Origin: Marinobacter bohaiensis
GTDB taxonomy: Bacteria > Pseudomonadota > Gammaproteobacteria > Pseudomonadales > Oleiphilaceae
Direction of reading: 5' to 3'
Length of the DNA stretch: 64,000 nucleotides
Assembly: GCF_003258515.1 (NCBI RefSeq)
Contig: NZ_QGEH01000002.1
Span: 62,001-126,000, forward strand
This document shows positions 31,814 through 62,210 of this stretch, piece after piece. Made by a program: the position numbers and the translations under genes. Under the pieces are notes generated by a model that had not been told where the DNA came from, did no database searches, and worked only from the letters and a program-made list of their open reading frames with translations. Numbering within the stretch: the first letter of the stretch is position 1; every line of letters starts with the position of its first letter.

Positions 31814-34372
31814 ATGCCTGAGCCCCACAGCCCCAGGGTCCGAAAGTGGATCTGGCTACCGTTCGTGCTTTTTCTCGGGCTCGGTGTCTACGGGTTCCTG
31901 CTGAATCTGTCGCCGGCCCTGGGCGCTCACGCCCTTCCGCTGCAGCCATCGTCGCTGTTGCCCGAAACCGGCGACGATATCTTCCAGCCCCACATTGCCT
32001 TCCGCAAGGCCAACCTGGACCAGGTCCTGGCACACGACGACTGGCTCTCGGGCAGCGGCTGGCAAACCCTGCCCGATTTTCGTGAGGGCCTGGGCTACCT
32101 GCAATCGCCCGCCACCTTCCGCATCACGCTGCAGAACCCGGATCCCGAACCGCTCTCGTTGCTGCTGCAAATCGAGGCGCCCTCCCTGGACCGGGTCCGC
32201 GCCGTCGCCATTCCCGAGGACGGCCAGCCCGAGCGACTGCCGACGCTCGGCGACCAGGCCCCTTTCGCCGAGCGCATCGTCAAACTGCCGGAGCTGATCT
32301 GGCCCATCGTGCTGGGCGGACACAGTTACACCACCCTGCTTTTTGAGGTCAATAACGCCGGACCGACGCTGTTTCCCTTCAGCGTCACGCGCCCGGAGCA
32401 CCTGCTCAGCGAAGTGGGCAGCCGGATTGCCTGGAAAGCTGCGCTCTACGGCGTCCTGCTGTTTGCCCTGGTGTTCGACATCGCCCTGCTGCTCACACTG
32501 CGCAGCATGGCCGCCGCCTGGCTCACCTGCCTGCTGACCAGCGTGCTGTTTACCCAGCTGTGCGTGGACGGCTTCGGGCTCTGGCTGATCTGGCCCAACA
32601 TGCCGGCCCTGGGCAGCCTGCTGTCCCCCATGATCGCACTCAGCGCCGTGGCGCTGATCCGCTTCTGCCGGCACTTCCTGGGGCTCACCGGCCCCTGGCT
32701 CTACCCCCTGCGCCTTGCCGCCCTGAGCATGCTGGCGCTGGCCCTGCTGGAGCCCGTGCTCCCCGGGCTGGTGGGGCAGGACACCATCCTCGTGGGCGGC
32801 AGCATCAGCTTGCTGCTGGTTCTGGCCGTTGCCCTCGCCCGCTCCCGTGAGCAGGCCTCGGCGCGCTATCTCTCGGTAGCCCTGGTGCTGCTGATCCTGG
32901 GTGCGGCGACGGCCATGCTGCGCACCATTGGCTGGGTGCCGGTCAACGCCATCACCAATTCCGGTTTCTATCTGGGCACGGCCGCGGCGTCCATTTTCCT
33001 GACGCTGGTGGTCGGCTATCGTCTGGTCGAGGAGCGCCGGCGCCGCCTCAGCGCCACCCAGCGCGCCCTGGAAGAACGCCGCCTGCGCACGCGACTGGAG
33101 CAGGACTACGACCAACTGGCCGCCTCCAACCGCATCACCCGCCGCCCCAACCGCGCGATCATCGAGCAGACCCTGGCGCAGCTGTCGCCGCTGGACCAGC
33201 CCTTCGTGGTGGGTCTGTTGCGCCTGGAACGCTACGGCGAGATCGAGCGCGCGCTGGGCTACCAGGAGGCGGAAAACCTGCTGCGCATCTACCTGACCCG
33301 GCTGTGCCGATACCTGGAAACCCATTTCAGTGGCCAGCTGATCCTGTTCCGGGGCCACCCGGTGGGCACGGTGGACACCTTCAACCACGTCTTCGCCCTG
33401 CGCACCGACGTGGGCAGCATTCCCTGGAACGACATCCGCGCCTGGCTGGAGCAGACTTTCAACGAAGAACACTACGCGTTCAGTTGGGTGGGCCGGCTGG
33501 GGCTGGCCTACGCGCCGGAACACGGCACCGCCGGCAGCGAACTGATCTCCCGCGCCGGCTTCGCGGCCCTGTCCAGCGACGCCATCATCAACGTCTACGA
33601 TCCGTATTCCGAGAAGAAACAGAACCTGCAGCACTTCCTGATCCTGGACCTGGACCAGGCCCTGCGCACCGGCGCCATCCACCTGCACTACCAGCCCAAG
33701 GTGTTCGTCCACGACAGCCGAGTCATCGCCTACGAGGCGCTGATCCGCTGGGACCATCCGCAGCACGGCCGCATCCGCCCGGACCAGTGGATTCCCTTCG
33801 CCGAACAGGTGGGCGCCATCCACGGCGTCACGCTCTGGGCCATCGAACGGGCGGTGCAGGATCTGCCGATGCTGGAGCAGCAGACCGGTTACGCGGTAAC
33901 CATCGCCATCAACATTTCCGCCCGCGATCTGGCGCGACAGGACTTTCACAGCGAGGCGCTGGCAATCCTCGATCGCCACCGGGTAGCACCCGACCAGGTG
34001 ATGCTGGAAATCACCGAAACCGCGGTCATGGGGGATGTGGACCGTGCCCGCCAGATGCTGGAGAAACTCAGCCACGCCGGCTTCCGCATCGCCCTGGACG
34101 ACTTCGGTACCGGCTACTCCTCCCTCAGCGCCCTAGCCTCGTTCAGTCTGGACGAACTCAAGATCGACCGCAGTTTCCTGACCGACATCCACATCGACGC
34201 GGTGCGCCAGCGCATCTTCCACACCGCGGTGGAGCTGGGCGAAGCGCTGGATCTGCGCATCGTGGTGGAAGGTGTGGAATCGGCAGCGGTCGCCGACTGG
34301 CTGCAGCGCTACCCCGGCCTGTGCGGCCAGGGCTACTACTGGGGCCGGCCGGCACCGCTCATACCGGCCTGA
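31814..34372 (+). CDS. 7TMR-DISM-like sensor with degenerate GGDEF and EAL domains
   Basis: An 852-aa membrane protein built like the one at 10913: N-terminal anchor helix (WLPFVLFLGLGVYGFLLNL in part), a periplasmic domain (about residues 40-200), seven membrane helices (about 205-400), a short coiled coil, a GGDEF-derived domain that keeps RRPNRAIIEQ but has no GGDEF loop, and an EAL domain with YEALIRWDHP (EAL 641-643), NISARDL, EITETAVM, DDFGTGYSSLSALASF and EGVES. The EAL motifs appear complete, so c-di-GMP hydrolysis is predicted. Similarity to the first protein is in architecture; sequence identity looks modest, suggesting old paralogues. Confidence 0.85.
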   Translation: MPEPHSPRVRKWIWLPFVLFLGLGVYGFLLNLSPALGAHALPLQPSSLLPETGDDIFQPHIAFRKANLDQVLAHDDWLSGSGWQTLPDFREGLGYLQSPATFRITLQNPDPEPLSLLLQIEAPSLDRVRAVAIPEDGQPERLPTLGDQAPFAERIVKLPELIWPIVLGGHSYTTLLFEVNNAGPTLFPFSVTRPEHLLSEVGSRIAWKAALYGVLLFALVFDIALLLTLRSMAAAWLTCLLTSVLFTQLCVDGFGLWLIWPNMPALGSLLSPMIALSAVALIRFCRHFLGLTGPWLYPLRLAALSMLALALLEPVLPGLVGQDTILVGGSISLLLVLAVALARSREQASARYLSVALVLLILGAATAMLRTIGWVPVNAITNSGFYLGTAAASIFLTLVVGYRLVEERRRRLSATQRALEERRLRTRLEQDYDQLAASNRITRRPNRAIIEQTLAQLSPLDQPFVVGLLRLERYGEIERALGYQEAENLLRIYLTRLCRYLETHFSGQLILFRGHPVGTVDTFNHVFALRTDVGSIPWNDIRAWLEQTFNEEHYAFSWVGRLGLAYAPEHGTAGSELISRAGFAALSSDAIINVYDPYSEKKQNLQHFLILDLDQALRTGAIHLHYQPKVFVHDSRVIAYEALIRWDHPQHGRIRPDQWIPFAEQVGAIHGVTLWAIERAVQDLPMLEQQTGYAVTIAINISARDLARQDFHSEALAILDRHRVAPDQVMLEITETAVMGDVDRARQMLEKLSHAGFRIALDDFGTGYSSLSALASFSLDELKIDRSFLTDIHIDAVRQRIFHTAVELGEALDLRIVVEGVESAAVADWLQRYPGLCGQGYYWGRPAPLIPA

Positions 34373-37407: not shown

Positions 37408-37506
37408 GATTCAAGCCGTTGAATTTGCATCTAAACTGCTAATCTGATCGTACATGGATAGTTTCGTCACTTCATGATGACCCGTTGCGGCAACAAAAAG
37501 GACCCC

Positions 37507-40272
37507 ATGCCCAAAAACCCCGTTGTTTTGCCAGCAGTACTCGTCCTGGCGCTTTTCAGCCAGGTCGTCCTGGCTCAGGCACCCCGGAATGTCGGCTTCT
37601 ATTACGGCCACGAGGCACCGGTCAGCGCCTTGATGGCGTACGACTGGCTGGTCCTGCAACGCGATCGCAACAGCACGTCACGCCTCGACACCCTCAACGA
37701 CGCCGGCGTGGCGCCCATTGCCTATGTCAGCGTGGGCGAAATGGCCCGCAGTCACAAGCAGTTTGCGCAACTTCCCGCCACCGCACGCCTGGGCCGGAAC
37801 ACGGGCTGGGACAGCGCCATTCTCGATATCCGCCAGCCGGCGGTACGCGCCTTCCTGCTCGACAGGCTGATCGACCCGGCGTTCCGGGCCGGCTACCACG
37901 GGGTTTTCCTGGACACCCTCGACAGCTACCGGCTCACCCAGGCCGGCCAGGACGATCCGGCGGCGTTCGTGCAGGCCCTGGCGACCCTGATCGGCCGCAT
38001 CCGCGAGCGCCACCCGGACGCCCGGATCATCATCAACCGGGGCTTCGAACTCCCCGAGAGCGTCCACGCCCAGGTAGACGCACTGGCCTTCGAATCCTAC
38101 CGGCGCGGCTATGACGCCGGCCGCAAACGCTATCGTCCGGTGTCCGACGCCGATCGCCAATGGCTCCGGGGCCAGCTCGATCACTGGCGCGACCGGCACC
38201 CGGACAAGCCCCTGATCGCCATCGACTACGTGCGCGACGCCAGCGACGCGCCCGCCCTGGCCAGGCAACTGCGCCAGGATGGCTTCGTCCCCTACGTCAC
38301 CGACCCGGACCTGCAGCGCCTGGGGCCCACCGAACCGCAACGGATCAAACGCGAGGTGCTGGTCCTGCACGATGCGCAGGACGGCCTGATGGCGCACAGC
38401 GCCGCCCACCGGTATGGCGGTGTGCTACTGGAACGGCTGGGTTACATCCCGGTTTACCGGGATATGCACGCCACCCTGCCCAGCGAGCCTCTCGATGACC
38501 GCTTCGCCGGCATCGTCGCCTGGTGGGAGGGCGGCGCCAAGAGCCGTCGTGTGTGCCGATGGCTGTCGCAGCACCGTGGCAAACTGCCGCTGGTGGTCAT
38601 GGGCCGGCTGCCACCGGACCGCAACTGCGAGGCCCTTATCCGGTCCGACACCGTCACCCTGCCCGCGCTCCCTGTGACGACGACGCCGCGCCAGGCATCG
38701 GTCGGCCGTTTCGAGGGCACGCATTTGCCCGCAATGCCGGATTCGGCGCTGCCGCGCGCCGAAGGCGTCTCGTCGTGGCTGGAGATCACCGATGCCCAGG
38801 ACACGACCTTCACGCCGGTCTATACGGCCGAGCATCTCGGCGTGGCCCTGGAGCCCTACCTTTTCGAGCCGGGCCCCGAAGACGAACGCTACTGGCTGTT
38901 CGATCCGTTCGCGTTTCTGGCGGAGGCCCTCGGGGGGCCTCTCTATCCCACACCGGACGCCACGACGGAAAGTGGGCAACGCATCCTGACAGCTCACATC
39001 GACGGCGACGGTTTCGTATCCCGGGCCGAGCTGGAAGGCAGCCCGCTGGGTGCGACGGTCATCATGGACCAGATCATCAAACGTTACCGCGTTCCGCATA
39101 CCGTGTCGGTCATCGAAGCCGAAACCTCACCGAACGGCATCTATCCAGCGACCAGCGCCGAAGCCGAACGCATCGCCCGCCAACTGTTCCGGCTGGATAA
39201 CGTGGAAGTGGCGTCGCATTCCTACAGCCACCCCTTTTTCTGGCAGATCATCGAGGACGGTTCGCGCCCGTTACCGGTGTTCGCAGATTACGGCTACGCA
39301 CTGGGCGTCCCCGGGTACAAGCCGGTCCTGCAGCGCGAGATCCCCGGCTCGATCGACTACATCAACCGGCGCCTGGCGCCGGCGGACAAACCGACCAACC
39401 TGTTCCTCTGGACCGGCGACGCCCTGCCCGGCGAGCGCGCACTCAAAGCGGTTCGCTCCGCTGGCGTCCTGAACGTCAACGGCGGCGACACCCACCCGCT
39501 GCCCTACGCCTCCCAACTGGCGGGTGTCTGGCCCATGGCGCGCCCGGTCGGCGACGAGCTGCAGATCTACGCGCCGGTCATGAACGAAAACGTCTACACC
39601 AATCTCTGGCACGGCCCGTACTATGGCTTCCGCGACGTGATAGACACCTTCCGTATCCTGGAAAACTACCAACGGCTCAAACCGTTGAGCATCTACTACC
39701 ACTTCTATTCCGGAACCAAGCCTGCCGCGCTCAATGCCCTGAAGGCGGTCTACGACGACGCCCTGTCGCGGCCGGTGACCCCCCTGTACCTGAGCCAGTA
39801 CGCCCGGCGCGCCCGGTTCAACTACCGCTCGGCCATGCTGCGGGACAGCCATGGACGCTATACCTGGCGCGGCATCGGCGCCCCGCACACCGTGCGCATC
39901 GACCCGGCCGGCCAGTACCCGGATCTGGCCGCCAGTCAAGGCGTCGCCGGGTTCCATGACGATGCCGGCAACCGCTATGTTCACCTGACCGGCTCCCAGC
40001 CAACACTCGCGCTGCGCGACACGCCTCCGGAAGGCCCCTATCTGCAACAGGCCAATGCGGTTCTGACCCACTGGTCGCGGCGCCGGGTCGACGACCGCTG
40101 GCGTATCGAGCTAGGGTTCTCCGGCATCGGCCCGCTGAGCGCCACCCTGGCCGGCACCGGGCATTGCCGTGTGATCCGCGGAGCGTCCCTGTCCGTGAAG
40201 GGCACGGGGCGCCCGGTACAACTTGGCGCGCCGGGTAAAAACGTGAACTCGGCGACCCTGGAGTGCCGTTGA
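37507..40272 (+). CDS. pelA: PelA, Pel polysaccharide hydrolase and deacetylase
   Basis: A 921-aa periplasmic protein and first gene of the pel operon. A signal peptide (VVLPAVLVLALFSQVVLAQA) is followed by the glycoside hydrolase domain (about residues 25-260), with the probable acid Glu196 in LAFESYRRGYD, then a reductase-like middle region and the polysaccharide deacetylase domain, with HIDGDGF (Asp499/Asp501) and the metal-binding HSYSH (His571, His575). In P. aeruginosa PelA (948 aa) deacetylates GalNAc-containing Pel for export and can cleave it. AAAGGA precedes the ATG at 37507. All key residues are in place, so the protein should be active. Confidence 0.95.
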   Translation: MPKNPVVLPAVLVLALFSQVVLAQAPRNVGFYYGHEAPVSALMAYDWLVLQRDRNSTSRLDTLNDAGVAPIAYVSVGEMARSHKQFAQLPATARLGRNTGWDSAILDIRQPAVRAFLLDRLIDPAFRAGYHGVFLDTLDSYRLTQAGQDDPAAFVQALATLIGRIRERHPDARIIINRGFELPESVHAQVDALAFESYRRGYDAGRKRYRPVSDADRQWLRGQLDHWRDRHPDKPLIAIDYVRDASDAPALARQLRQDGFVPYVTDPDLQRLGPTEPQRIKREVLVLHDAQDGLMAHSAAHRYGGVLLERLGYIPVYRDMHATLPSEPLDDRFAGIVAWWEGGAKSRRVCRWLSQHRGKLPLVVMGRLPPDRNCEALIRSDTVTLPALPVTTTPRQASVGRFEGTHLPAMPDSALPRAEGVSSWLEITDAQDTTFTPVYTAEHLGVALEPYLFEPGPEDERYWLFDPFAFLAEALGGPLYPTPDATTESGQRILTAHIDGDGFVSRAELEGSPLGATVIMDQIIKRYRVPHTVSVIEAETSPNGIYPATSAEAERIARQLFRLDNVEVASHSYSHPFFWQIIEDGSRPLPVFADYGYALGVPGYKPVLQREIPGSIDYINRRLAPADKPTNLFLWTGDALPGERALKAVRSAGVLNVNGGDTHPLPYASQLAGVWPMARPVGDELQIYAPVMNENVYTNLWHGPYYGFRDVIDTFRILENYQRLKPLSIYYHFYSGTKPAALNALKAVYDDALSRPVTPLYLSQYARRARFNYRSAMLRDSHGRYTWRGIGAPHTVRIDPAGQYPDLAASQGVAGFHDDAGNRYVHLTGSQPTLALRDTPPEGPYLQQANAVLTHWSRRRVDDRWRIELGFSGIGPLSATLAGTGHCRVIRGASLSVKGTGRPVQLGAPGKNVNSATLECR

Positions 40273-43200
40273 TGCGGGCTCGCAGACGCATCCAGTTTTT
40301 CCGGCTGCCGTCGCTGCTCGCCATCGGGGTGCTGTTCACGCTGGCGCTGTTCGCCCTGTACCCGCGTCAGACCGTGTTCGAGGACATCCACTTTCTGGAG
40401 CAACCGGACGCCCTCTCCATTGCCTACCTGCACGTGCTGCTGCGCGCCGACCCCGACAACCCGTCGCTGCGCATCAACCTGGGGCACATGCTGCGCAAGA
40501 CCGGGCAGGGCCGTGCAGCCGAGCGAGTCCTGAATCCGTTTCTCGAGAACGATCCCATTCCCTACAACGCCCTGTCCGATATCCTCCTGCTCCGCCAGCA
40601 ACGGGTGTACGAGGCGACCCGACCGGAAGACCGGGCAACCGCGCGGCGCCGGCTGTTCGAGACGCTGGAGCGGGTGCCGGATCAGCCCTACAGCTTTGAC
40701 GATAAAACGGCGTTGATCGATCCCGTCGAGGACGCGCTGAGTCTGGCCCAGGCCAGCCAGCTATGGCGCGACATGGCGCGTTTCGCACCGGAAGCCGGCG
40801 AGCGCCGCAAGATCGCCCGCCGGCTGGCCGAACTCCAGGAGGCCCAGGGCAAGCCCGGCGCCGCCGCCGGGACGCTGCTCGACAGCCTGCGGGAAGACGG
40901 CGCAGCCGACTCGGGGCCGATGGTCGATGACATTCTGCGACTGCAGCTGGCCGCCGGGCAGCCTCGCCAAGCGCTGTCCCTGTTCAAGTCGCAGCGCGCC
41001 ACGACTCCGATGGACACCGCCACGCTGGAACAGGGCATTGAGCTGGCCCGCTACGCCGGCGCCAACGACGACCGCCTGCGCTGGCTGCAACGCCTGGTGG
41101 ACCAGCAGCCCGATGACGTGCCTCTCCTGCGCGAACTGCTGACCGCGCAACTGGCCCAGGGTGACACCACCTCGGCACTGGCCACGGTCCGCCGCCTGCA
41201 GACACAGGCACCGGACCTGACGCCCGCAGACCGGACCCGGATGGCGCAAGTCCTGGACTGGAACAACCTTCCGGCCGAGGCCTTGCCGTACTGGTCCGAG
41301 CTGTATGTGGAGCACAACCAGCCGCAAGCACTGGAACGAGCGACCTCGACCGCCCGCAGCCTGTTCGACTGGGCCGCTCTGGAGAGGCTTCTGTCGCTCG
41401 CGGAAAATCGCGGTCACAGCAATCCCGACAGCTACCTCCTGCTCGCCGACAGCCGCATCCGGAACGGCGATATCGAGTCCGCCTTGCGGGTGCTCGACCG
41501 CGGTATCACCCGTTATCCGAAAGCCCCCGCGCTGCAGGAGCGCAAGCTGTCGCTGCTGCTCAACAGCCGGGATTTCAACGGTGCCATCGCCTACCTGGAA
41601 CAGCGCGATACCCTGAGCGACAAGCAGCGCCTGCAACTGGCACAGCTTTACTGGCGCACCCGACAGCCGGAAGCCGCCCTGGCCCACCTGGATTTCCAGC
41701 CGTCGGACCCGGGCATCCGCAACGACGTCACGTTCATGCGCCTGCGGCTGGGGCATTACCTCGGGCGACTGCGGGGGATCCGGGACGATTACCAGGCCAT
41801 GCTGGACCGCCTGGAAGACGAACCGCCGCAGGTTCAGGAGGAACTGTTGTCCCTGGCGATCCTGTTCGAAGACTACACCGCCGCCCGCCACATCAGTCGC
41901 GTGCGCTATGCCAGCACGAACGAGCCGCGCTACCTCGCCAACCAGGCGGAGTACGCGGCCGCCACCGGCGACTGGTCCGCCGCTACGGACGCGCTCGACG
42001 CCTGGGTCGACGCCTTCCCGAGCGCGACCAACCTCAACCGTTACTGGCAGCTGCGCGCCCTGACCTATCACCAGACCGGCCGTCTCGATCAAGCCGACCA
42101 GGCCTACCGGGAGGCCTACCGCCTTGCCCCCGACGACCTGAAAACCCTGGTCGGCTGGGGCTGGCTGATGCTCAGCGAACCTGAACGTTTCGGCGAGCGA
42201 CTGTCCCATATGCTCGCCCGCCTCGAGGCCCAGGGCGACCCCGAAACCTATCCGGTGCTGGCCTACGGCCACAGTGCTCTGGGCCATCCCGAACAGGCCC
42301 GGGCATGGTTCCTGCGCGGGTTGGACGGGCATCGGGCGGAACCCGAATGGCTGCTGTCCACGGCCCGGGTGCTGGAACTCACCGGCCGGGAACGGCAGGC
42401 AGAAGCATTACGGGCGAGCATCGACCCCGGCCGGATCACCGACGCCAACACCCGGGTCGCCTATTACCGGGCCCGCGGACTGGACCGCCTGGCCCTGACG
42501 GTCCTCGGTCGTGCCGCCACCGACACCGATCAACGGCAGATGGCACAGCAAGCCCTGGATGCCGGCCACGCCCTGCTGGCCGAAGCCTGGCTGGCGCAGT
42601 CGCGCGAGCCGGACGACAACGCGCTGCTGCATCCGGCCGACCTGACCCCGGCGCAACAACGACAGCGCCTGCTGGCCAACCTGGATACGTTGGAATCGGA
42701 CCGCGGCTCCGATCTGTCACGCTCGCGTCTGCGGGAAACCGTGGACCTTCACCGCGGAGCCCAGCGCTCAATTCAGACGGGCGTGGAACGCCTCGACCTG
42801 GGCAATTTCGCCGTGCGCCAGACCGGCATCAAGGGCCGCTACGCGTTGGACGAGGTCAGCGTCAGCGGGGCTGCCAGCCGGGTGGCGCCAGAATCCGCCG
42901 GGCGTCTCGCCGAGCGTCCCGACGCCGGCGCCGAGGGACGCCTGGGTCTGGCCTGGCAGGGCTCGCGCTGGGGGCTCCAGGTGGAGGCGGCCAGCCTGGC
43001 GCGGGACGAAGGGCCCTCGCCGGCCTTCTCCGTGGAAGGGGACTGGCAACCGGCGGACCGCTGGAGCCTGCAGGCGGGGCTGGAACACAACGCCCGCGCG
43101 CCCGACTCCGCCGAGGCCTGGTGGCTGCTCGGCCGCGATCGCCAGTCCCTGGCCGCCACCTACAGCCCGTTTTCACGGCTGGCCCTGACCGGGCGGGCGG

Positions 43201-43685
43201 AACGTCTGGCCTACCATTCCGCCGATGACGATTCGCTGGGTTCGGGCCACAGCCTCGAGTTCACCGCCGATTACACCCTGTTCCGCGAAGACCCCGCCAT
43301 GACCGTGACATTGGGCTACCAGCGACAGCAACTGGACCTGGAGCCGACCCTGCCGGCGAGCGTCAACGACGAACTGGACAGCCCCTTGCCGCCCTCAGCG
43401 CTGCTAACCGACGAATACGAACGCGTCGGCGCGCGCGTTCGCTGGTTTCACGGCGAGCCCCACAGCCTTTTCCGAAGTACCGCCTCGCCCCGGGGCTTCC
43501 TGGAAGTGGGCAGCGGCTATGTGATCTCCACGGATACCCCCGAGATCGGCCTGGGCGCGGGCCTGGGCTGGCGGCTGTTCGGGGACGACGAACTGGCCCT
43601 GTCCGCCCGCTGGGCGTCCGAAGGCATCGACGGCAGCGGTCGCGCCGACCTGAATCTAACCTATACCCTGTATCTGGACCGTTAA
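40272..43685 (+). CDS. pelB: PelB, TPR scaffold and outer-membrane porin
   Basis: A 1137-aa protein. An N-terminal membrane helix (LPSLLAIGVLFTLALFALY) anchors it, followed by a long array of TPR-like helical repeats (about residues 40-780; for example YLHVLLRADPDNPSLRINLG, and QADQAYREAYRLAPDDLKTL), and a C-terminal beta-barrel of about 350 residues ending LNLTYTLYLDR with alternating hydrophobic strands. In Pseudomonas PelB (1193 aa) the TPR part docks PelA and the barrel exports Pel. The ATG overlaps the pelA stop (TGATG), giving translational coupling; an in-frame GTG at 40263 is a less likely start. Confidence 0.93.
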   Translation: MRARRRIQFFRLPSLLAIGVLFTLALFALYPRQTVFEDIHFLEQPDALSIAYLHVLLRADPDNPSLRINLGHMLRKTGQGRAAERVLNPFLENDPIPYNALSDILLLRQQRVYEATRPEDRATARRRLFETLERVPDQPYSFDDKTALIDPVEDALSLAQASQLWRDMARFAPEAGERRKIARRLAELQEAQGKPGAAAGTLLDSLREDGAADSGPMVDDILRLQLAAGQPRQALSLFKSQRATTPMDTATLEQGIELARYAGANDDRLRWLQRLVDQQPDDVPLLRELLTAQLAQGDTTSALATVRRLQTQAPDLTPADRTRMAQVLDWNNLPAEALPYWSELYVEHNQPQALERATSTARSLFDWAALERLLSLAENRGHSNPDSYLLLADSRIRNGDIESALRVLDRGITRYPKAPALQERKLSLLLNSRDFNGAIAYLEQRDTLSDKQRLQLAQLYWRTRQPEAALAHLDFQPSDPGIRNDVTFMRLRLGHYLGRLRGIRDDYQAMLDRLEDEPPQVQEELLSLAILFEDYTAARHISRVRYASTNEPRYLANQAEYAAATGDWSAATDALDAWVDAFPSATNLNRYWQLRALTYHQTGRLDQADQAYREAYRLAPDDLKTLVGWGWLMLSEPERFGERLSHMLARLEAQGDPETYPVLAYGHSALGHPEQARAWFLRGLDGHRAEPEWLLSTARVLELTGRERQAEALRASIDPGRITDANTRVAYYRARGLDRLALTVLGRAATDTDQRQMAQQALDAGHALLAEAWLAQSREPDDNALLHPADLTPAQQRQRLLANLDTLESDRGSDLSRSRLRETVDLHRGAQRSIQTGVERLDLGNFAVRQTGIKGRYALDEVSVSGAASRVAPESAGRLAERPDAGAEGRLGLAWQGSRWGLQVEAASLARDEGPSPAFSVEGDWQPADRWSLQAGLEHNARAPDSAEAWWLLGRDRQSLAATYSPFSRLALTGRAERLAYHSADDDSLGSGHSLEFTADYTLFREDPAMTVTLGYQRQQLDLEPTLPASVNDELDSPLPPSALLTDEYERVGARVRWFHGEPHSLFRSTASPRGFLEVGSGYVISTDTPEIGLGAGLGWRLFGDDELALSARWASEGIDGSGRADLNLTYTLYLDR

Positions 43686-43695
43686 GGAGAATCCG

Positions 43696-44232
43696 ATGTT
43701 GCAACGTATCCCGCGCCTCCCCACCCTGCTGTTCGCCAGCCTGCTGGTGCTGAGTGGCTGCTCGGTGCTGCAGAGCGAAGACGGCCTGGCCATTCCGGCC
43801 GATAGCCGCCTGGCCGTGGTGCCCCTGATGAACCTGTCGCAAACCCCGCAGGCCGGCGAACAGGCCGCCAGCGTCCTCAGTGCGCTCCTGCGGGCCGAGG
43901 GCAGTCACAACACCACCTTGTTCCTGCCGCAGCAGCGCGACCCTCTGCTCTACGACAACAGCGAGCGTCGCCAGGAGGCCCTGGAGTCAGCCGAAGCCAG
44001 CGCGCCCGATTACCTGGTGACAGGCACCGTCGAGGAGTGGCGCTACAAGAGCGGTCTGGACGGGGAACCCGCCGTGGGTGTGACGCTGGAGATCCGCGAC
44101 GCTGACACCGAACGCCTGGTGTGGAGTGGCACCTCGGCACGCACCGGCTGGGGCCGGGAAAGCCTGAGCGTCGCTGCTCACAAGGTACTGGATGAATTGG
44201 TCGAGCGTATGCCGTTAACCAACAGGGACTGA
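43696..44232 (+). CDS. pelC: PelC, outer-membrane lipoprotein of the Pel exporter
   Basis: A 178-aa lipoprotein. The lipobox LSGC places the lipidated Cys at position 22; Ser at +2 predicts outer-membrane sorting. The mature part, starting SRLAVVPLMNLSQTPQAGEQAASVL and with DYLVTGTVEEWRYKSGL and EIRDADTERLVWSGTSAR, fits the PelC fold. In Paraburkholderia and Pseudomonas PelC forms a dodecameric ring on the inner face of the outer membrane that funnels the cationic polymer into the PelB pore. Only 10 nt separate it from pelB; GGAGA precedes the ATG. Confidence 0.93.
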   Translation: MLQRIPRLPTLLFASLLVLSGCSVLQSEDGLAIPADSRLAVVPLMNLSQTPQAGEQAASVLSALLRAEGSHNTTLFLPQQRDPLLYDNSERRQEALESAEASAPDYLVTGTVEEWRYKSGLDGEPAVGVTLEIRDADTERLVWSGTSARTGWGRESLSVAAHKVLDELVERMPLTNRD

Positions 44233-44239
44233 ACCGCCC

Positions 44240-45571
44240 ATGGTGGATACTTCGCTACAGAGCGCCCTCCGCCCGCAAGAAGCGAGCGATCTGCTGAAAT
44301 GGCTGGAAACACTGCTGATCACGTTGGCCTGCTTCGCGCTGGGGGCCTGGAGCCGCCCGGACGATCCGTTCTTCCTGACCGGTAATTTCCCCTGGCCGGT
44401 CATCGGTCCGTTGCTGGTGGCCCTGCGCTACGGCTTTTTCATGGCCCTGGCGGCTTCGCTGCTGCTTATTGGCGGATTGGGGATGTACCTGCGTTATCTG
44501 ACGGACGTGCCACAGCCCTATCCCTTCACCTGGGCCGCGGGGGTGCTCGCGGTGGTTCTGCTGGCCGGTGAATTCCGGGACTACTGGGAGCGACGCCGGT
44601 CCGAGCTGGCGGCGGCAAACGACTACCGCGACGGGCGGCTGGAGGAGTTCACTCGCAGCTATTACCTGCTCAAGGTATCCCACGACCGTCTCGAACAGCG
44701 GCTGGCGGGCAGCTCCCGCAGCCTGCGCGAAGCCTTGCGCCGCGTTTATTCGGAACTCGCCGCCGACAGCCACGCCGGCCTGACTCGGGATCGCGCCCAG
44801 GCGACACTCGCGTTGTTCGGCCACTACGGTCAGATACAGACCGCCGGGGTTTTCCCGGTGCGCCAGGGACGTCTCACCGCACAGGCCCTGGCATCCATCG
44901 GCGAATTCAAGCCGCTTTCCGGTAGCGACCCCCTGATCGAGCACGCCCTCCGGGAGCGCAAGCTGGTGTCGATACAGACGGAATACCACCGCCGCCAGGC
45001 CGAGCTCGACAGCCGCTTTCTCGCGGTGATTCCGCTGCTGACGTCCGATGGCGAGATCCTTGGCGTGGTCGCCGTCGAGGCGATGCCGTTTTTCTCGTTC
45101 GAGCCGCAGACGCTGCGCTTCCTGGCGATCCTGGCGGGCCATCTGGCCGACCAGTTGCAGGAGCAGGATCTCACGCCTGCGGGAGAAACGGAGGAACGGC
45201 GTCACTTCCGTCGTCAGTTGGCGCGAGTCGGACGCGACGCCGAGCGCTTCGACCTGCCAGCCTGTCTGCTGTGCTTCCGGGCCGACACGACGCTGACGTC
45301 GCGCCAGATCGTCGACCACATCAAAAGCGTGCGTCGTGGGCTGGATGTGCTCTACGAAGCCTCGGACAACCACGGGCTGCGCCTGGCGATCCTGATGCCG
45401 CTGACGGATGAACTGGGGCAGTCCGGCTACCTGCAACGGCTGGAGGACGGCGTCCGCGAGACCCTCGGGGTTCACCTCGCCGACTGGCTGGGCGCCCCAG
45501 CCAGTCACCAGGTAAGCGACCGCGCGACCGCCGAAAGCTGGCTGGAGGCCCATCTCGCCCATGGGCAGTAG
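44240..45571 (+). CDS. pelD: PelD, inner-membrane c-di-GMP receptor
   Basis: A 443-aa protein with four N-terminal membrane helices (about residues 22-112), a coiled coil, a GAF domain (about 165-315) and a degenerate GGDEF domain (about 325-430). In place of GGDEF the loop reads SDNHG, so it cannot synthesise c-di-GMP, but the I-site RxxD is intact as RGLD (Arg366-Asp369), almost the same position as Arg367/Asp370 in P. aeruginosa PelD. Binding of c-di-GMP there activates Pel synthesis. This makes the operon post-translationally responsive to cyclases such as the one at 9119. Confidence 0.94.
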   Translation: MVDTSLQSALRPQEASDLLKWLETLLITLACFALGAWSRPDDPFFLTGNFPWPVIGPLLVALRYGFFMALAASLLLIGGLGMYLRYLTDVPQPYPFTWAAGVLAVVLLAGEFRDYWERRRSELAAANDYRDGRLEEFTRSYYLLKVSHDRLEQRLAGSSRSLREALRRVYSELAADSHAGLTRDRAQATLALFGHYGQIQTAGVFPVRQGRLTAQALASIGEFKPLSGSDPLIEHALRERKLVSIQTEYHRRQAELDSRFLAVIPLLTSDGEILGVVAVEAMPFFSFEPQTLRFLAILAGHLADQLQEQDLTPAGETEERRHFRRQLARVGRDAERFDLPACLLCFRADTTLTSRQIVDHIKSVRRGLDVLYEASDNHGLRLAILMPLTDELGQSGYLQRLEDGVRETLGVHLADWLGAPASHQVSDRATAESWLEAHLAHGQ

Positions 45572-46547
45572 CGGACTCATCCTCCAGGCCCTGGCGGCCG
45601 AAGCCGCTGCGTTCGCCGGCCTGTTCTATCTGGACGACGGGCTGGCGCAGCTGGTCACCTATATGACGCTTCACGCCCTGGCCTGCGGCTTGCTGACGCC
45701 GGTGCTGCTGAGGCTCCTGCCGGCCCGCTACCGTGGCTCTCCCCGCCGGGCCGCCGCGTTCCTGTTCACCATTCAGTTCGCCATCCCTTTTATCGGCAGC
45801 CTGGGGGTGGCGCTGGGGGTATTGCTGGCGCTTTACCTGCCACGCTCCACCCGCGAGCTGCCCTGGCAGGAAATCGACATTCCCGAATTGCCGTACCGGC
45901 CCATCGATACCGAATTGCAGATGTTCTATTCCGAGGGCGGGCTGCAACAGGTCCTGCGTGACGCCGCCGACCCCGAGAAGCGTCTCAAGGCCCTGATCGC
46001 CACACGCCAGATGGACAGCCGGGAAGCCATCGTTATTCTGCGCCAGGCCCTGCGGGACAAGACGGACGATGTCCGCCTGCTGGCCTACTCCATGCTCGAA
46101 CAGAAGGAAAAGACGCTGTCTCACCAGATTATCCGTCTGCAGGATGCACTGCGGACCGCATCCGACGAGCAGGGCCTCATTCTCCAGCGGCGCCTGGCGC
46201 AGCTGTGGTGGGAAATGGCCTACCTCGGTCTCGCCCAGGGCGGGTTGCAGCGCCACTACCTGGAAAACGCACGGGCCACGCTGCTCCGCCTGGTCGACCG
46301 GCGCCCGAGGCATGGCGACTATCACCTGCTCGGCCGAGTCCACCTGCAACTCGGCCAACTCGACGACGCTCGCGCCGCCTTCGAGCAGGCACAGGCGCTG
46401 AACGCGCCCCCCGCGAAAATCCAGCCCTACCTGGCCGAAGTCGCCTTCCTGCAGCGGGATTTCGCCAACGTCCGACACCACCTGTCCGCCTGCCCGTCCA
46501 CCGAGCGGGATGCGGGCATCGAATCTCTCAAACAGGCCTGGTTGTAA
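45561..46547 (+). CDS. pelE: PelE, TPR-containing inner-membrane Pel protein
   Basis: A 328-aa protein. Two membrane helices near the N-terminus (about residues 30-95, including AFLFTIQFAIPFIGSLGVALGVLLALYL) are followed by a cytoplasmic helical domain with TPR repeats (HYLENARATLLRLVDRRPRH and GRVHLQLGQLDDARAAFEQA). In the Pel complex PelE bridges PelD, PelF and PelG at the inner membrane. It overlaps the end of pelD by 11 nt, consistent with translational coupling. Confidence 0.92.
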   Translation: MGSSGLILQALAAEAAAFAGLFYLDDGLAQLVTYMTLHALACGLLTPVLLRLLPARYRGSPRRAAAFLFTIQFAIPFIGSLGVALGVLLALYLPRSTRELPWQEIDIPELPYRPIDTELQMFYSEGGLQQVLRDAADPEKRLKALIATRQMDSREAIVILRQALRDKTDDVRLLAYSMLEQKEKTLSHQIIRLQDALRTASDEQGLILQRRLAQLWWEMAYLGLAQGGLQRHYLENARATLLRLVDRRPRHGDYHLLGRVHLQLGQLDDARAAFEQAQALNAPPAKIQPYLAEVAFLQRDFANVRHHLSACPSTERDAGIESLKQAWL

Positions 46548-46551
46548 GCGA

Positions 46552-48066
46552 ATGGAGAAACAAGCGCCTCCCGTCAAAGCCGACATTGCCCTCCTGCTGG
46601 AGGGCACCTATCCGTTCATCCGCGGCGGCGTCTCGTCCTGGGTCCACCAGATCATCCAGGGCCTGCCGGAGTACACCTTCGCGCTGATTTTCATGGGTGG
46701 CGAACGCAGTCATTACGGTGAGCAGCAGTACGAGCTACCGGCCAACGTGCGTCACCTGGAATGCCATTACCTGATGGACGGGCACAGCGAGCCCAAGCCC
46801 CGCCCCCGCAAGGGCAACCGCCAGGCGTTCGACGCCCAGCGCGACCTGCACGCGACCTTCCGTTCCGGCGAACCGGCCTCCCGGGAGATCATGCAGCGGG
46901 TGTTCGCCGATCTGGGCTCGTCGAAAGGCATCAGCTTCTCGGACTTCCTGCACAGCGAAGCCAGTTGGGAGATCATCGACGATTACTACCGTCGTTACTG
47001 CACCGAGCCCTCCTTCGTCGACTATTTCTGGTCGGTGCGGATCATGCACGCCCCGCTGTTCCAGCTGGCGCGCATCGCCCGGGAGATGCCGCAGGTCCGG
47101 ATGCTCCACTCGATTTCCACCGGTTACGCCGGTCTGCTGGGCGCCATGGTCAGCGAACAGCGCCAACTGCCGCTCGCGCTGTCGGAACACGGCATCTACA
47201 CCAAGGAACGTAAAATCGATCTGTCCCAGGCGCAATGGATTCACGATCCCGCCGATCAGGTCAGCGGCACGCTCAACGAGCAGGTGGGCTATATCCGCCA
47301 GCTGTGGATTCGTTTTTTCGAATCCATCGGGCGCATGACCTACCAGCAGGCCGACCCCATCGTGTCGCTGTACCAGGGCAACCAGGACCGGCAGCACGTC
47401 GACGGCGCCCCCACGGAACGCACACGGATCATCCCCAACGGCATCAACCCGCAACAGTTCGAACGCGCGCGAAAAGCCCGACCGGATCACGTGCCTCCGG
47501 TATTGGGGCTGGTCGGGCGAGTGGTGCCGATCAAGGACATCAAGACCTTCATTCGCGCCATGCGGACCGTGTGCGACCAGCGGCCCGACGCCGAAGGCTG
47601 GATCGTCGGCCCGGAAGACGAGGACGAGGCCTACGTGCGGGAATGCAAGGAGCTGGTTCAGAGCCTGGGGCTGGACAAGCGGGTGCGCTTCCTCGGTTTC
47701 CAGAATATCCAGGACATCCTGCCGCAGCTGGGCCTGATGGTGCTGACGTCCATTTCCGAGGCGTTGCCACTGGTGATCCTCGAAGCCCACGCGGCGGGGC
47801 TCCCGTGCCTGGCGACGGATGTGGGCTCGTGCCGGGAACTGCTGGAAGGCAACCAGCCCGAGGACCGGGCCCTGGGCGCCAGCGGGGCGGTGGTGCCCAT
47901 TGCCGATCCAGAAGCCACGGCGCGGGAGGCGGTGCGCCTGCTGGGTGACGAGCAGGCCTGGTACGCCGCCCAACGGGCCGGACTCGAACGCGTGGAACGC
48001 TACTACACGCTCGACAGCATGTTCGAGGCGTACCGCGACATCTACCGGAAAGGAACGACAGCATAA
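46552..48066 (+). CDS. pelF: PelF, Pel polymerising glycosyltransferase
   Basis: A 504-aa GT-B glycosyltransferase. It starts with the PelF hallmark DIALLLEGTYPFIRGGVSSW; the C-terminal half has GLVGRVVPIKDIKTFIRAM (donor-binding Arg/Lys region) and an EX7E motif ISEALPLVILEAHAAG (Glu403, Glu411), matching Glu405/Glu413 of Pseudomonas PelF. It uses UDP-GalNAc/UDP-GlcNAc in the cytoplasm to build Pel. It starts 4 nt after the pelE stop, and its stop overlaps the pelG start (TAATG). Confidence 0.95.
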   Translation: MEKQAPPVKADIALLLEGTYPFIRGGVSSWVHQIIQGLPEYTFALIFMGGERSHYGEQQYELPANVRHLECHYLMDGHSEPKPRPRKGNRQAFDAQRDLHATFRSGEPASREIMQRVFADLGSSKGISFSDFLHSEASWEIIDDYYRRYCTEPSFVDYFWSVRIMHAPLFQLARIAREMPQVRMLHSISTGYAGLLGAMVSEQRQLPLALSEHGIYTKERKIDLSQAQWIHDPADQVSGTLNEQVGYIRQLWIRFFESIGRMTYQQADPIVSLYQGNQDRQHVDGAPTERTRIIPNGINPQQFERARKARPDHVPPVLGLVGRVVPIKDIKTFIRAMRTVCDQRPDAEGWIVGPEDEDEAYVRECKELVQSLGLDKRVRFLGFQNIQDILPQLGLMVLTSISEALPLVILEAHAAGLPCLATDVGSCRELLEGNQPEDRALGASGAVVPIADPEATAREAVRLLGDEQAWYAAQRAGLERVERYYTLDSMFEAYRDIYRKGTTA

Positions 48067-49442
48067 TGGCCGGCATCGGTTTCGAGATTCGCCGCATCCT
48101 GCGACGCGAGAGCTTCCTCAACCTGATTGAAGCCTACGGGCTGGCGGGGATTATCAGCTCCGGCCCGTGGGTGCTGTCCGTCCTGGGGGTGATGGTCATC
48201 GGCATACTCAGCCTGTCGATGGCGGTCGATGATCGAGAAATCATCCAGTTTCTGGTTTCGGTGACCTACCTGATGGCGATCTCGCTGGTGGTTTCCGGGG
48301 TGTTCCAGCACGTTTTTACCCGCTGGGTCGCCGACCGCCTGTACGAGAAGAAAAACGAGTTGATCCTGCCCAACCTGATGGGGCTGATCTGGGTCACCAC
48401 CCTGATGGCCGGCGTCATCGGTGGCCTGGCCGTTGCCTTTCTGCTGGACGGCACCTCGACGATCTACCGGCTGCTTATGTTCGGCAACTTCGTGGTGCTG
48501 TGTAACCTGTGGCTGGTCACCATTTTCCTGTCCAGCATGAAATCCTATCGCCGCATCGTGATTCTCTTTGCGCTGGGCTACGCCACCGCGGTCGTGGCCG
48601 CCACCCGCCTGGCCGACTGGGGGCTGGAAGGTCTGTTGACCGGCATCCTGCTGGGCCACAGCCTGCTGTTCTTCAGTTTCTTCTATTCCATCATCCGCCA
48701 GTACCCCGGCGAGAGCTTCATCCGCTTCGACTTTATCCGTCGCCGCCAGATCTTCCCGTCGCTGATTCTCACCGGGTTGCTGTTCAACGCCGCGGTGTGG
48801 GCGGACAAGTTCATCTTCTGGTTCTACCCGCCCACCTCGCAGCCGATCATCGGCGAACTGCGGGCGTCGGTCATCTACGATCTCCCGATTTTCCTGGCCT
48901 ATCTGTCGATCATCCCCGGGATGGCGGTATTTCTCGTACGCATGGAAACCGATTTCGCCGAAGCCTATGACCGCTTCTACCGGGCCGTCCGCGAGGGCGA
49001 CACCCTGGCGCGCATCAATCAGTTCCGCGACGAGATGGTGCTCATCGCCCGCAACGGTATCTATGAAATTTTCAAGGTGCAGGGCCTGACCATCGTGGTC
49101 CTGTTCCTCTGGAGCGAAGACATCCTCTCGGCCATTGGCATCTCTCCGCTCTATCTGGCGCTGTTCCGCATCGACCTGGTGGCGGTAGGCATCCAGCTGT
49201 TGCTGCTCGCTATCCAGAACGTGCTGTTCTACCTCGATGCACGCGGGGTCAACGTCGCGCTTTGCAGCCTGTTCTTCTTCGGCAACATTGCCTTCACCCT
49301 GCTGACGCTGGAACTGGGTGCGTCGTTTTACGGCTACGGCTTCGCCGGGGGCGCCCTGCTGGCGGTTCTGGGCGGGCTGTTCCTGTTGTCACGCAAATTC
49401 GACCGACTCGAGTACGAGACCTTCATGTTGCAGGGACGCTAG
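48066..49442 (+). CDS. pelG: PelG, inner-membrane Pel transporter
   Basis: A 458-aa polytopic protein with twelve predicted transmembrane helices, a Wzx/MATE-type flippase relative. MAGIGFEIRRILRRESFLNLIEAYGLAG is the conserved PelG N-terminus; the family's WADKFIFWFYPPTS and VIYDLPIFLAYLSIIPGMA blocks are present. It moves the growing polymer across the inner membrane with PelD, PelE and PelF. It is the last gene of the operon; the 62 nt before the convergent plsC-like gene contain no strong hairpin. Confidence 0.95.
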   Translation: MAGIGFEIRRILRRESFLNLIEAYGLAGIISSGPWVLSVLGVMVIGILSLSMAVDDREIIQFLVSVTYLMAISLVVSGVFQHVFTRWVADRLYEKKNELILPNLMGLIWVTTLMAGVIGGLAVAFLLDGTSTIYRLLMFGNFVVLCNLWLVTIFLSSMKSYRRIVILFALGYATAVVAATRLADWGLEGLLTGILLGHSLLFFSFFYSIIRQYPGESFIRFDFIRRRQIFPSLILTGLLFNAAVWADKFIFWFYPPTSQPIIGELRASVIYDLPIFLAYLSIIPGMAVFLVRMETDFAEAYDRFYRAVREGDTLARINQFRDEMVLIARNGIYEIFKVQGLTIVVLFLWSEDILSAIGISPLYLALFRIDLVAVGIQLLLLAIQNVLFYLDARGVNVALCSLFFFGNIAFTLLTLELGASFYGYGFAGGALLAVLGGLFLLSRKFDRLEYETFMLQGR

Positions 49443-60646: not shown

Positions 60647-61021
60647 ATGACCGACCTGCTTCGCAAGCTGACTCAACAGACCCGATTGTGGCGCGTTGCC
60701 CTGCTGGTTTCCATGACGGCGATCCTGTGGCTGGCGACCTCCGACCTGGACCAGCCGATCCAGGTATCCTCCTGGGACAAGCTCAACCACGTCACTGCTT
60801 TCGTCGAGCTCACCCTGCTGCTGCGCCTGGGGTGGCCGCGCCTCGGGGTCGCCACCAGCGTTGCGGTCCTGCTTGGTTACGGCCTGTTCATCGAGCTATG
60901 TCAGGCCCCACTGCCCTATCGCAGCTTCTCGCTGCTGGATCTGGTGGCGGATGGGGTCGGCATCGCCGCCGGACTGGCACTCTGGTTCCTGACGGTTCGC
61001 CGACTCTCGGATAACACTTAA
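60647..61021 (+). CDS. VanZ-like family membrane protein
   Basis: A 124-aa protein with four membrane helices. WLATSDLDQPIQVSSWDKLNHVTAFVELTLLLRL contains the VanZ-family Lys-x-x-His motif (DKLNH), and FIELCQAPLPYRSFSLLDLVADGVGIAAG contains the second motif (E-Q-x5-R-x-x-x-x-x-D). VanZ itself gives low teicoplanin resistance, but most members are of unknown role. Divergent from cysZ. It ends 19 nt before the GacA-type box of the sRNA. Confidence 0.88.
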   Translation: MTDLLRKLTQQTRLWRVALLVSMTAILWLATSDLDQPIQVSSWDKLNHVTAFVELTLLLRLGWPRLGVATSVAVLLGYGLFIELCQAPLPYRSFSLLDLVADGVGIAAGLALWFLTVRRLSDNT

Positions 61022-61039: not shown

Positions 61040-61057
61040 TGTGAGATATTTCTCACA
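61040..61057. promoter_or_regulatory. GacA/UvrY-type upstream activating palindrome
   Basis: TGTGAG-ATATTT-CTCACA, a perfect 18-bp palindrome with 6-bp arms and a 6-nt spacer. This is the geometry of the GacA box (TGTAAG-N6-CTTACA). The 8-nt distance between TGTGA and TCACA excludes a CRP/Vfr site, which needs 6. It lies about 175 nt before the predicted sRNA start, similar to the spacing of Pseudomonas rsm genes as I recall them. Confidence 0.7.
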
Positions 61058-61224
61058 GCGCTGTAGGTAAATTCGATTTCGTGCCGTGCGAAGCCCACGA
61101 GAACGCCTCTGAGAATTTTCCAGACCTTTGTTTAAAAAGAAAATTTCAAGATGGCAATGTTCCCGCCATGGGAAAGCAAGAAAGCCGTCACATATCGGCA
61201 ATGTGCAAATTGCTATAGTGGAGT

Positions 61225-61454
61225 TGTCAGGATGACAGGGACAGGAAGACACACGGAGTAGTTCCTCACAGGAGCGTGAGGGGAAGCAGGGATTAAACGG
61301 ATTTCCCGCTTTAGGGACTCGTTTTATCTGGATCGCCGGCTAGGACGCTGGCGCCACGGAGCTGGCAAGGGACTTCAAAACGCGACAGGGTTTGACGCGC
61401 GCAGGGACGCGGATACCCGTTCCGACCAAGGGCAACGCAAGTTGCCCTTTTTTT
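61225..61454 (+). ncRNA. CsrB/RsmZ-type regulatory RNA
   Basis: The 526-bp gap after vanZ encodes no protein but holds about 230 nt with fifteen GGA motifs, ending in a perfect terminator (AAGGGCAAC / GTTGCCCTT, loop GCAA, seven T). Several GGAs sit in hairpin loops: TGTCA-GGA-TGACA (61225-61237), CCTCAC-AGGAGC-GTGAGG (61264-61281) and GCCGGC-TAGGAC-GCTGGC (61335-61352). A -10 TATAGT lies at 61214-61219, with no good -35, as expected for an activated promoter. In relatives such RNAs sequester CsrA/RsmA, relieving repression of biofilm, polysaccharide and secondary-metabolism mRNAs. The GacA-type palindrome upstream completes the picture. The 5' end is inferred. Confidence 0.82.
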
Positions 61455-61500
61455 GTGCCCGGTTTTTACTCGCGTGCCCGGCGCTCATCCGGACATACGG

Positions 61501-61535
61501 TCACGATCACGATCACGATCACGATCACGATCACG
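61501..61535. repeat. Hexanucleotide tandem repeat (TCACGA)n
   Basis: Almost six perfect tandem copies of TCACGA, immediately downstream of the methyltransferase stop and 46 nt after the sRNA terminator. It lies outside any coding frame. Confidence 0.9.
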
Positions 61536-61547
61536 GCCGATGATCGA

Positions 61548-62210
61548 TCACTCAGGCCCCGCCCGATAGATACGCACCCGGTTGAACTCCTCGAACTCGT
61601 GGAGGTCGGGCCAGGTCCGGCCCTCTCCGACCGTCTGCAGAACGTAGCGGTCGTCCCCCAGATCCTTCACCCGGGAATCCGCCAGCAACACGCTGGGCGC
61701 GGCGGCCCGGAATTCGGCCAGTAGCGGCCGGTTTTCCGGGTCGTAGAGCACATCGGCCGCCGTCACCACATCGAATGCACCGACACGGCCGTGCCAGTCG
61801 TCGCACAGGGTTACCGCCACGTCGTTCAGGCGGGCGTTGGCCGCCACAGCCGCCAGGGCATCGGCATCGATGTCGCACGCGACCACCTCGCTCGCGCCCG
61901 CACGGGCGGCGGCAATCGCCACAACCCCCGAACCGGAACCGAAATCGATCACCCGCCGGCCGGCCACCGTGTCCGGATGATCCAGGAGGTACTGGGCCAG
62001 CACCTGACCGCTGGCCCAGCAAAAGGACCAGTAGGCCGGCTCGGCCACCACCGCCTGGGCTTCGTCGTGACTGAGCGGCCCTTCCAGCACCGCCGGATCG
62101 AACAGGTATAGAGGCAGCGTCGGGCAGCCGGACGGGGCGGTCCGGGCCACGCGTCCGCGGGCCAGGGTGCGCTGCATGCGCTGGTTGAGCAGGGCGTCGG
62201 TTTTGAGCAT
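61548..62210 (-). CDS. Class I SAM-dependent methyltransferase (Nnt1/ETFBKMT-like)
   Basis: A 220-aa methyltransferase. VIDFGSGSGVVAIAAARAGASEVVACDID (around residues 88-116) is the SAM site with motif I and II; TAADVLYDPENRPLL is motif IV. The N-terminal WSFCWASGQVLAQYLLDHP is typical of the family annotated as predicted nicotinamide N-methylase (COG3897) and of the protein-lysine methyltransferases ETFBKMT and METTL20-like. A substrate cannot be named; electron-transfer flavoprotein beta is one known target of relatives. Convergent with the sRNA gene. Confidence 0.82.
   Translation of the reverse strand: MLKTDALLNQRMQRTLARGRVARTAPSGCPTLPLYLFDPAVLEGPLSHDEAQAVVAEPAYWSFCWASGQVLAQYLLDHPDTVAGRRVIDFGSGSGVVAIAAARAGASEVVACDIDADALAAVAANARLNDVAVTLCDDWHGRVGAFDVVTAADVLYDPENRPLLAEFRAAAPSVLLADSRVKDLGDDRYVLQTVGEGRTWPDLHEFEEFNRVRIYRAGPE

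Follow-up and report, generated by a model that had tools for sequence, protein, structure and literature searches.

In Csr/Rsm systems a sponge RNA, activated by phosphorylated GacA, binds several CsrA dimers, and CsrA-regulating RNAs of this kind were reportedly surveyed by Kulkarni and colleagues in 2006. The Pseudomonas examples, RsmX, RsmY and RsmZ, are GGA-loop sRNAs of about 110–120 nt. For the longer csrB of Escherichia coli the control region has been described: the UvrY site TGTGAGAGATCTCTTACA is centred at -183/-182, UvrY binding has been mapped at this repeat, and a partly conserved TGTAGGAGA follows 5 bp downstream of the site (PMC4682653); in the K-12 sequence we place the centre of the repeat at -182.5 and TGTAGG 5 nt behind it. 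CsrB1 and CsrB2 of Shewanella oneidensis were predicted from AGGA/ARGGA motifs combined with an upstream TGTAAGN6CTTACA box (PMC3171408), and the marine gammaproteobacterium Alteromonas Te101 carries three copies of a CsrB-like sRNA, Aln1a-c (PMC5864184).

Here we describe a candidate for the same class in Marinobacter bohaiensis, in a 64,000-nt stretch of its genome (the window). It occupies positions 61226..61455 on the plus strand, is about 230 nt long from a predicted 5' end, and contains 15 GGA. On the strength of GGA density, conservation, covariation and a covariance model, this is very probably the gene for a GacA-activated, CsrA-sequestering sRNA of the CsrB/RsmZ type that belongs to the source genome's family. 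The initial annotation had already proposed a CsrB/RsmZ-type sRNA here, and the proposal is supported by the GGAs, by covariation, by the matches of our covariance model R1 throughout the family, by the GacA-type repeat and by a layout like that of E. coli csrB.

The likeness to E. coli CsrB lies in the many GGAs, the GacA/UvrY repeat about 180 nt upstream, the half-site behind that repeat and the terminator. Unlike E. coli CsrB (369 nt, 22 GGA), the RNA here has about 230 nt and 15 GGA, different neighbours, no DNA similarity that we could find and no match to the CsrB/RsmB family of Rfam. With the repeat and half-site common to both loci, it seems that evolution has preserved the layout of the promoter more closely than the RNA transcribed from it. 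With Pseudomonas RsmX, RsmY and RsmZ the locus shares an upstream GacA-type palindrome (PMC2375449) and differs from them in its neighbours and in an RsmY match of only 10.5 bits vs a cut-off of 57. The likeness to the Shewanella RNAs (motifs plus box, two copies there) and to Aln1a-c (three copies there) is one of description.

The RNA lies in the 526-bp gene-free gap originally reported, which runs from the end of a VanZ-like ORF at 61021 to the end of a convergent methyltransferase ORF at 61548. Its 5' neighbour (60647..61021, plus strand) matches Pfam VanZ with 42.2 bits; its 3' neighbour (61548..62210, minus strand) matches Pfam methyltransferase families and is a class I methyltransferase. 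The usual gene order at the relatives' loci is VanZ-like gene, RNA, methyltransferase and MnmH, with exceptions: at L007, L010 and L033 MnmH comes after the RNA with no methyltransferase match, and VanZ is unmatched at some loci, while others are too short to judge. Directly 3' of the terminator, at 61497–61535, there is an ACGATC array of 6.5 copies with 96% matches, which is not visible in the relatives whose sequences were inspected.

GGA motifs and predicted structure

Counted from 61226 over 230 nt, the RNA has the fifteen GGAs first claimed for it, against 6.0 expected by composition, and none of 5000 mononucleotide shuffles of the 230-nt stretch reached that number. Beyond ±230 nt of 61226, every 230-nt stretch of the window has fewer than 13 GGA on the plus strand, and the maximum on the minus strand, over the whole window, is 11. 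Taking both strands together, the RNA is the GGA density maximum of the window. The initial annotation had named a density no higher than in other GC-rich intergenic regions of the genome as a finding that would tell against a sponge, and inside the window this objection does not apply.

Relatives were collected in two ways. A nucleotide search found the RNA in 22 of 58 genomes, M. bohaiensis itself included, and a pattern scan of named genomes gave 20 stretches: 11 from Marinobacter, six from Vreelandella utahensis (two), Halospina, Halovibrio, Mangrovitalea and Tamilnaduibacter, and three from MAGs labelled Halomonas sp., Halomonadaceae and Gammaproteobacteria. Eight of these 20 were used (L030 and seven new ones), the other 12 being dropped as contigs that, judged by length, were already in the nucleotide-search set; together with the 22 nucleotide-search loci, minus L021 (by length on the same contig as L030), they make up the 29 loci referred to below. 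The alignment used for GGAs and covariation holds 24 of the 29, leaving out L014 (a near-duplicate) and L018, L019, L022 and L030 (of different length).

In this alignment, at least 20 of the 24 relatives carry a GGA no more than four columns away from the position in question for 14 of the 15 motifs, and 10 of the 15 still pass if the exact column is required, counts which overstate the evidence because the relatives are not independent. The fifteenth (61411) is unique to the M. bohaiensis genome among the 24 aligned RNAs. Mean column identity is 0.89 for GGA columns vs 0.69 for other G or A columns. By these comparisons, selection acts on the stretch as a GGA-bearing RNA.

The minimum-energy fold has a z of -2.27, and 3 of 200 shuffles fold equally well. 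Four GGAs (61230, 61271, 61343 and 61358) lie entirely inside hairpin loops of this predicted fold, which bears out the earlier count of at least three. The predicted hairpins, all on the plus strand, begin with a 5' hairpin, GUCA-GGA-UGAC, at 61226..61236, which has the GGA as its loop and is conserved in sequence with no covariation. It is followed by a hairpin with the loop AGGAGC at 61263..61282, with changes on both sides in four of its seven pairs, and by a GCCGGC/GCUGGC hairpin with the loop UAGGAC at 61335..61352, with both-side changes in two of six pairs and pairing in 100% of alignment cells. The consensus fold adds a possible AAGC/GCUU helix (61284..61311, plus strand) around the GGAs at 61290 and 61299, which are invariant in 24 of 24 relatives; three of the four pairs of this helix show no variation at all, and it is missing from the single-sequence fold.

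An intrinsic terminator, as initially described, closes the RNA at 61428..61456 (plus strand). The terminator scan found a terminator-like stem at 61428–61449 followed by a T run, a result that is weak by itself because 1.2 such sites are expected by chance in the scanned region. The stem also covaries among the relatives, with changes on both sides in six of its eight pairs.

Taken over five helices, 12 of 29 pairs show changes on both sides, where shuffles give 7.7 and one in 500 reaches 12. Counted as cells, there are 44 with changes on both sides vs 12.9 in shuffles; 93.4% of cells are paired, against 88.4% in shuffles and 27–49% when the partner is slid. The structure tested, a consensus fold to which the 5' hairpin and a single pair were added, leans towards its own sequences because that fold was computed on the very alignment in which the pairs were counted. 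The covariation is located in three of the five helices: the 61263–61282 hairpin, the 61335–61352 hairpin and the terminator. We count two results against the sponge reading: the 5' hairpin and the AAGC/GCUU helix do not covary, and the “further pair types” measure is not above shuffles (192/500).

Identity searches and distribution among relatives

No Rfam family matched the window at gathering score, and the Csr clan stayed below cut-off even at E ≤ 10. We count this, too, against the sponge reading, and the initial annotation had itself named the lack of an Rfam hit as an outcome that would speak against its proposal. At the locus, RF00018 (CsrB/RsmB, gathering 71 bits) gave no match even at E ≤ 10, and the PrrB/RsmZ family gave none at gathering score or at E ≤ 10. 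The sole Csr-clan listing at E ≤ 10 was RF00195 (RsmY, gathering 57 bits), with 10.5 bits and E 4.8; when RF00195 was searched through the whole genome at E ≤ 1, this locus was absent among the 13 matches, none of which is over cut-off and 10 of which cover just the last 20–30 model positions. Of the other candidates, BjrC68, the best Rfam match (20.9 bits, gathering 39), was rejected since it is mainly the terminator hairpin, and the RsmY and enod40 matches at the locus were set aside as chance level.

The identical search, run on E. coli csrB as a positive control, scores it with 380.4 bits, and it matched none of the 20 tested relatives at gathering score. Because it finds E. coli csrB yet misses 20 of 20 relatives, the reach of the library is the likelier cause, and the absent match most likely means that the Rfam models do not extend to the source lineage. 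DNA searches against plasmids and E. coli gave no match to the RNA. We found no account of it in the literature on Marinobacter or Hahella with CsrB-type RNAs, where an earlier prediction is possible; a machine-learning search for RsmA-binding sRNAs does not mention Marinobacter in its main text (PMC5568370). The class of sponge RNAs is known, and what is new, most likely and as judged from sequence, is a family-wide member that Rfam misses.

To follow the RNA through the family we used a covariance model, R1, which covers the 5' part of the RNA (128 positions) and draws on the sequences of 22 of the 29 loci. It matches 150 of the 163 genomes of the source genome's family, with one match in M. 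bohaiensis. When the search was widened to the order (390 genomes), matches appeared in 22, of which 18 lie inside the family; the matches in the four genomes outside it are weak (19–22 bits, E 6e-4 to 8e-3). The 13 family genomes with no R1 match (two of genus g3, five of g4 and six of g13) count against the sponge reading. The seven from g3 and g4 retain the methyltransferase gene, and in the 3.6 kb around it they have a maximum of 4 to 7 GGA per 220 nt per strand.

GacA/UvrY is found in 155 of the 163 family genomes, including 10 of the 13 that lack an R1 match, so that co-occurrence with GacA does not discriminate as a test of the R1 sponge. Because these 10 possess GacA/UvrY, they may use another sponge. 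Five genomes of genus g13 (G108, G133, G126, G156 and G082) have GacA/UvrY and no R1 match, and they also lack a close copy of the neighbouring methyltransferase; there, too, another sponge may be present.

In M. bohaiensis itself the RNA may bind CsrA and still be one among several sponges rather than the main one. Sponge RNAs of this type number two or three in other gammaproteobacteria, R1 may miss sponges that are shaped otherwise, and one relative, G016, has three separate R1 matches; Alteromonas Te101 likewise has three such RNAs (PMC5864184). Set against this are the single R1 match in the M. bohaiensis genome and the poor surroundings of other candidate GacA sites. The genome has seven palindromes with no more than one mismatch, this one included, and the best 150 nt downstream of the other six hold 3 to 9 GGA on either strand, vs 13 here; a second sponge at any of them was rejected, and their number is at chance level because a backwards control pattern gives eight. 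We regard several sponges as a real possibility, although not the one we favor.

The upstream control region

The GacA/UvrY-type inverted repeat of the candidate sponge gene, TGTGAG-N6-CTCACA, lies at 61040..61057 (no strand assigned), where it reads TGTGAG-ATATTT-CTCACA. Its centre is at -177.5 from the predicted RNA start, in keeping with the “about 175 nt upstream” of the initial annotation. Two further points in that description need correction. It had spoken of a perfect 18-bp palindrome: the 6-bp arms are indeed perfect, but the whole 18 bp is symmetric at only eight of nine pairs. It had also presented the change from A/T to G/C at position 4 of each arm as a peculiarity, and this does not stand; a G at that position is an ordinary variant because E. 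coli csrB carries it too (its left arm is TGTGAG).

The pattern TGTRAG-N6-CTYACA occurs at a single place in the 4.76-Mb genome. Since roughly one occurrence could arise by chance in a genome of that size, it is the position and conservation of the repeat that give it weight. Within 250 nt upstream, the best GacA-type repeat is centred 170.5–200.5 nt before the RNA in all 29 loci, and 176.5–182.5 nt before it in 27 of them. It has at most two mismatches to TGTAAG-N6-CTTACA in 24 of 29 loci vs 17 of 1160 shuffled arms. Behind the repeat, at a distance of 4 nt, there is a possible extra GacA half-site, TGTAGG (61062..61067, plus strand). A further half-site, separated from the repeat by 4 or 5 nt, is present in 25 of 29 loci vs 51 of 616 control windows, a count whose motif was picked once a number of the loci and the E. 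coli study had been inspected; if TGTAGG as in E. coli is required, with at most one mismatch, the numbers are 13 of 29 loci vs 8 of 876 controls. Since the 29 loci are related to one another, none of these upstream counts is made up of independent cases.

Closer to the RNA, a -10 box, TATAGT, lies at 61214..61219 (plus strand), 6 nt before the predicted start, and the same TATAGT serves as -10 box in 18 of the 29 loci. A good -35 box is absent, and a general promoter scan of the region found no promoter. In 13 of 29 loci the letters GTCAC stand some 40 nt ahead of the RNA (counted by eye; 61187–61192 in the window), and the place expected for a -35 box has no good match.

The repeat could also be read as the site of some other TGTGA-type regulator, for instance a CRP-family protein, rather than of GacA. 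The CRP half-site pair is of the type TGTGA...TCACA with a spacing of 6, and the repeat resembles it with a spacing of 8 instead. We consider this very unlikely: three relatives (L013, L015 and L028) carry the exact GacA consensus TGTAAG-N6-CTTACA at the equivalent place, and both the distance and the half-site match those of E. coli csrB, where UvrY binding was mapped (PMC4682653). That the stretch holds no RNA gene at all, but is spacer DNA rich in GGA by chance or encodes a small protein missed in annotation, would suit the absent Rfam match but is scarcely credible in view of the family-wide conservation seen with R1 (150/163), the compensatory changes in the helices, the many gaps of differing length among the relatives' sequences, and the seven g3 and g4 genomes lacking R1, which near the methyltransferase reach only those 4 to 7 GGA per 220 nt.

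Proposed function, pel and enlarged versions

For the candidate as a CsrA sponge, the expected partners are present: the M. bohaiensis genome has one CsrA match and one UvrY/GacA protein above the curated cut-off. In the mechanism we propose, phosphorylated GacA/UvrY would bind the inverted repeat some 178 nt ahead of the RNA, possibly together with the half-site behind it, and would activate a promoter with a -10 box and no proper -35 box. The RNA would then present up to 15 GGAs, several of them in hairpin loops, to CsrA dimers, so that CsrA would be pulled off its mRNA targets and their translation altered. We infer the transcription of the RNA, its exact 5' end, its binding by CsrA, the binding of GacA upstream, and its targets from the features set out above.

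The initial annotation had further placed the RNA in the same window as pel and c-di-GMP genes, correctly so. Domains of a pel operon extend from 37474 to 49442 (GH114, PelB, PelD, a DUF3492 glycosyltransferase and PelG; the GH114 protein is presumably PelA-like and the glycosyltransferase PelF-like), and an EAL-domain protein is encoded at 31814–34372. The end of the pel operon is about 11.6 kb away from the GacA-type site. That the candidate would be the main CsrA-titrating RNA, and that it would be linked to the pel and c-di-GMP genes, we only infer. The putative pelA leader (37450–37510, before 37507) has two GGAs, one within a Shine-Dalgarno-like stretch and the other roughly 50 nt ahead of it. 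From these motifs the leader is a possible CsrA target, a GGA in a Shine-Dalgarno-like stretch being common, and any control of pel by CsrA would be speculation.

CsrA sponges govern biofilm, motility and metabolism, and their annotation relies on Rfam. Because Rfam misses a strongly conserved candidate sponge in the family tested, anyone reading the annotated genomes of these marine and saline bacteria would take their Gac/Csr circuit to lack a component; the alignment and the R1 model from this analysis would close that gap. The principle itself is not surprising. The longer versions in some relatives offer material on how sponge size evolves. It is conceivable, if somewhat unlikely, that the Gac/Csr switch of the family works mainly through one lineage-specific sponge gene with one GacA site, and that in some members the RNA grew by repetition of a GGA module. 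If module repetition is true, the enlarged genes of G011 and G015 would form a natural series on the evolution of sponge capacity. The predicted gene of G011 (L030:6738-7369) has 632 nt and 35 GGA, with four R1 matches in series at steps of about 125 nt; a run of Tandem Repeats Finder over L030 6600–7500 detected no array, so the repetition in this gene rests on the four R1 matches and on a reading of the sequence. The predicted gene of G015 (L019:1541-2160) is of similar size, with 620 nt and 38 GGA.
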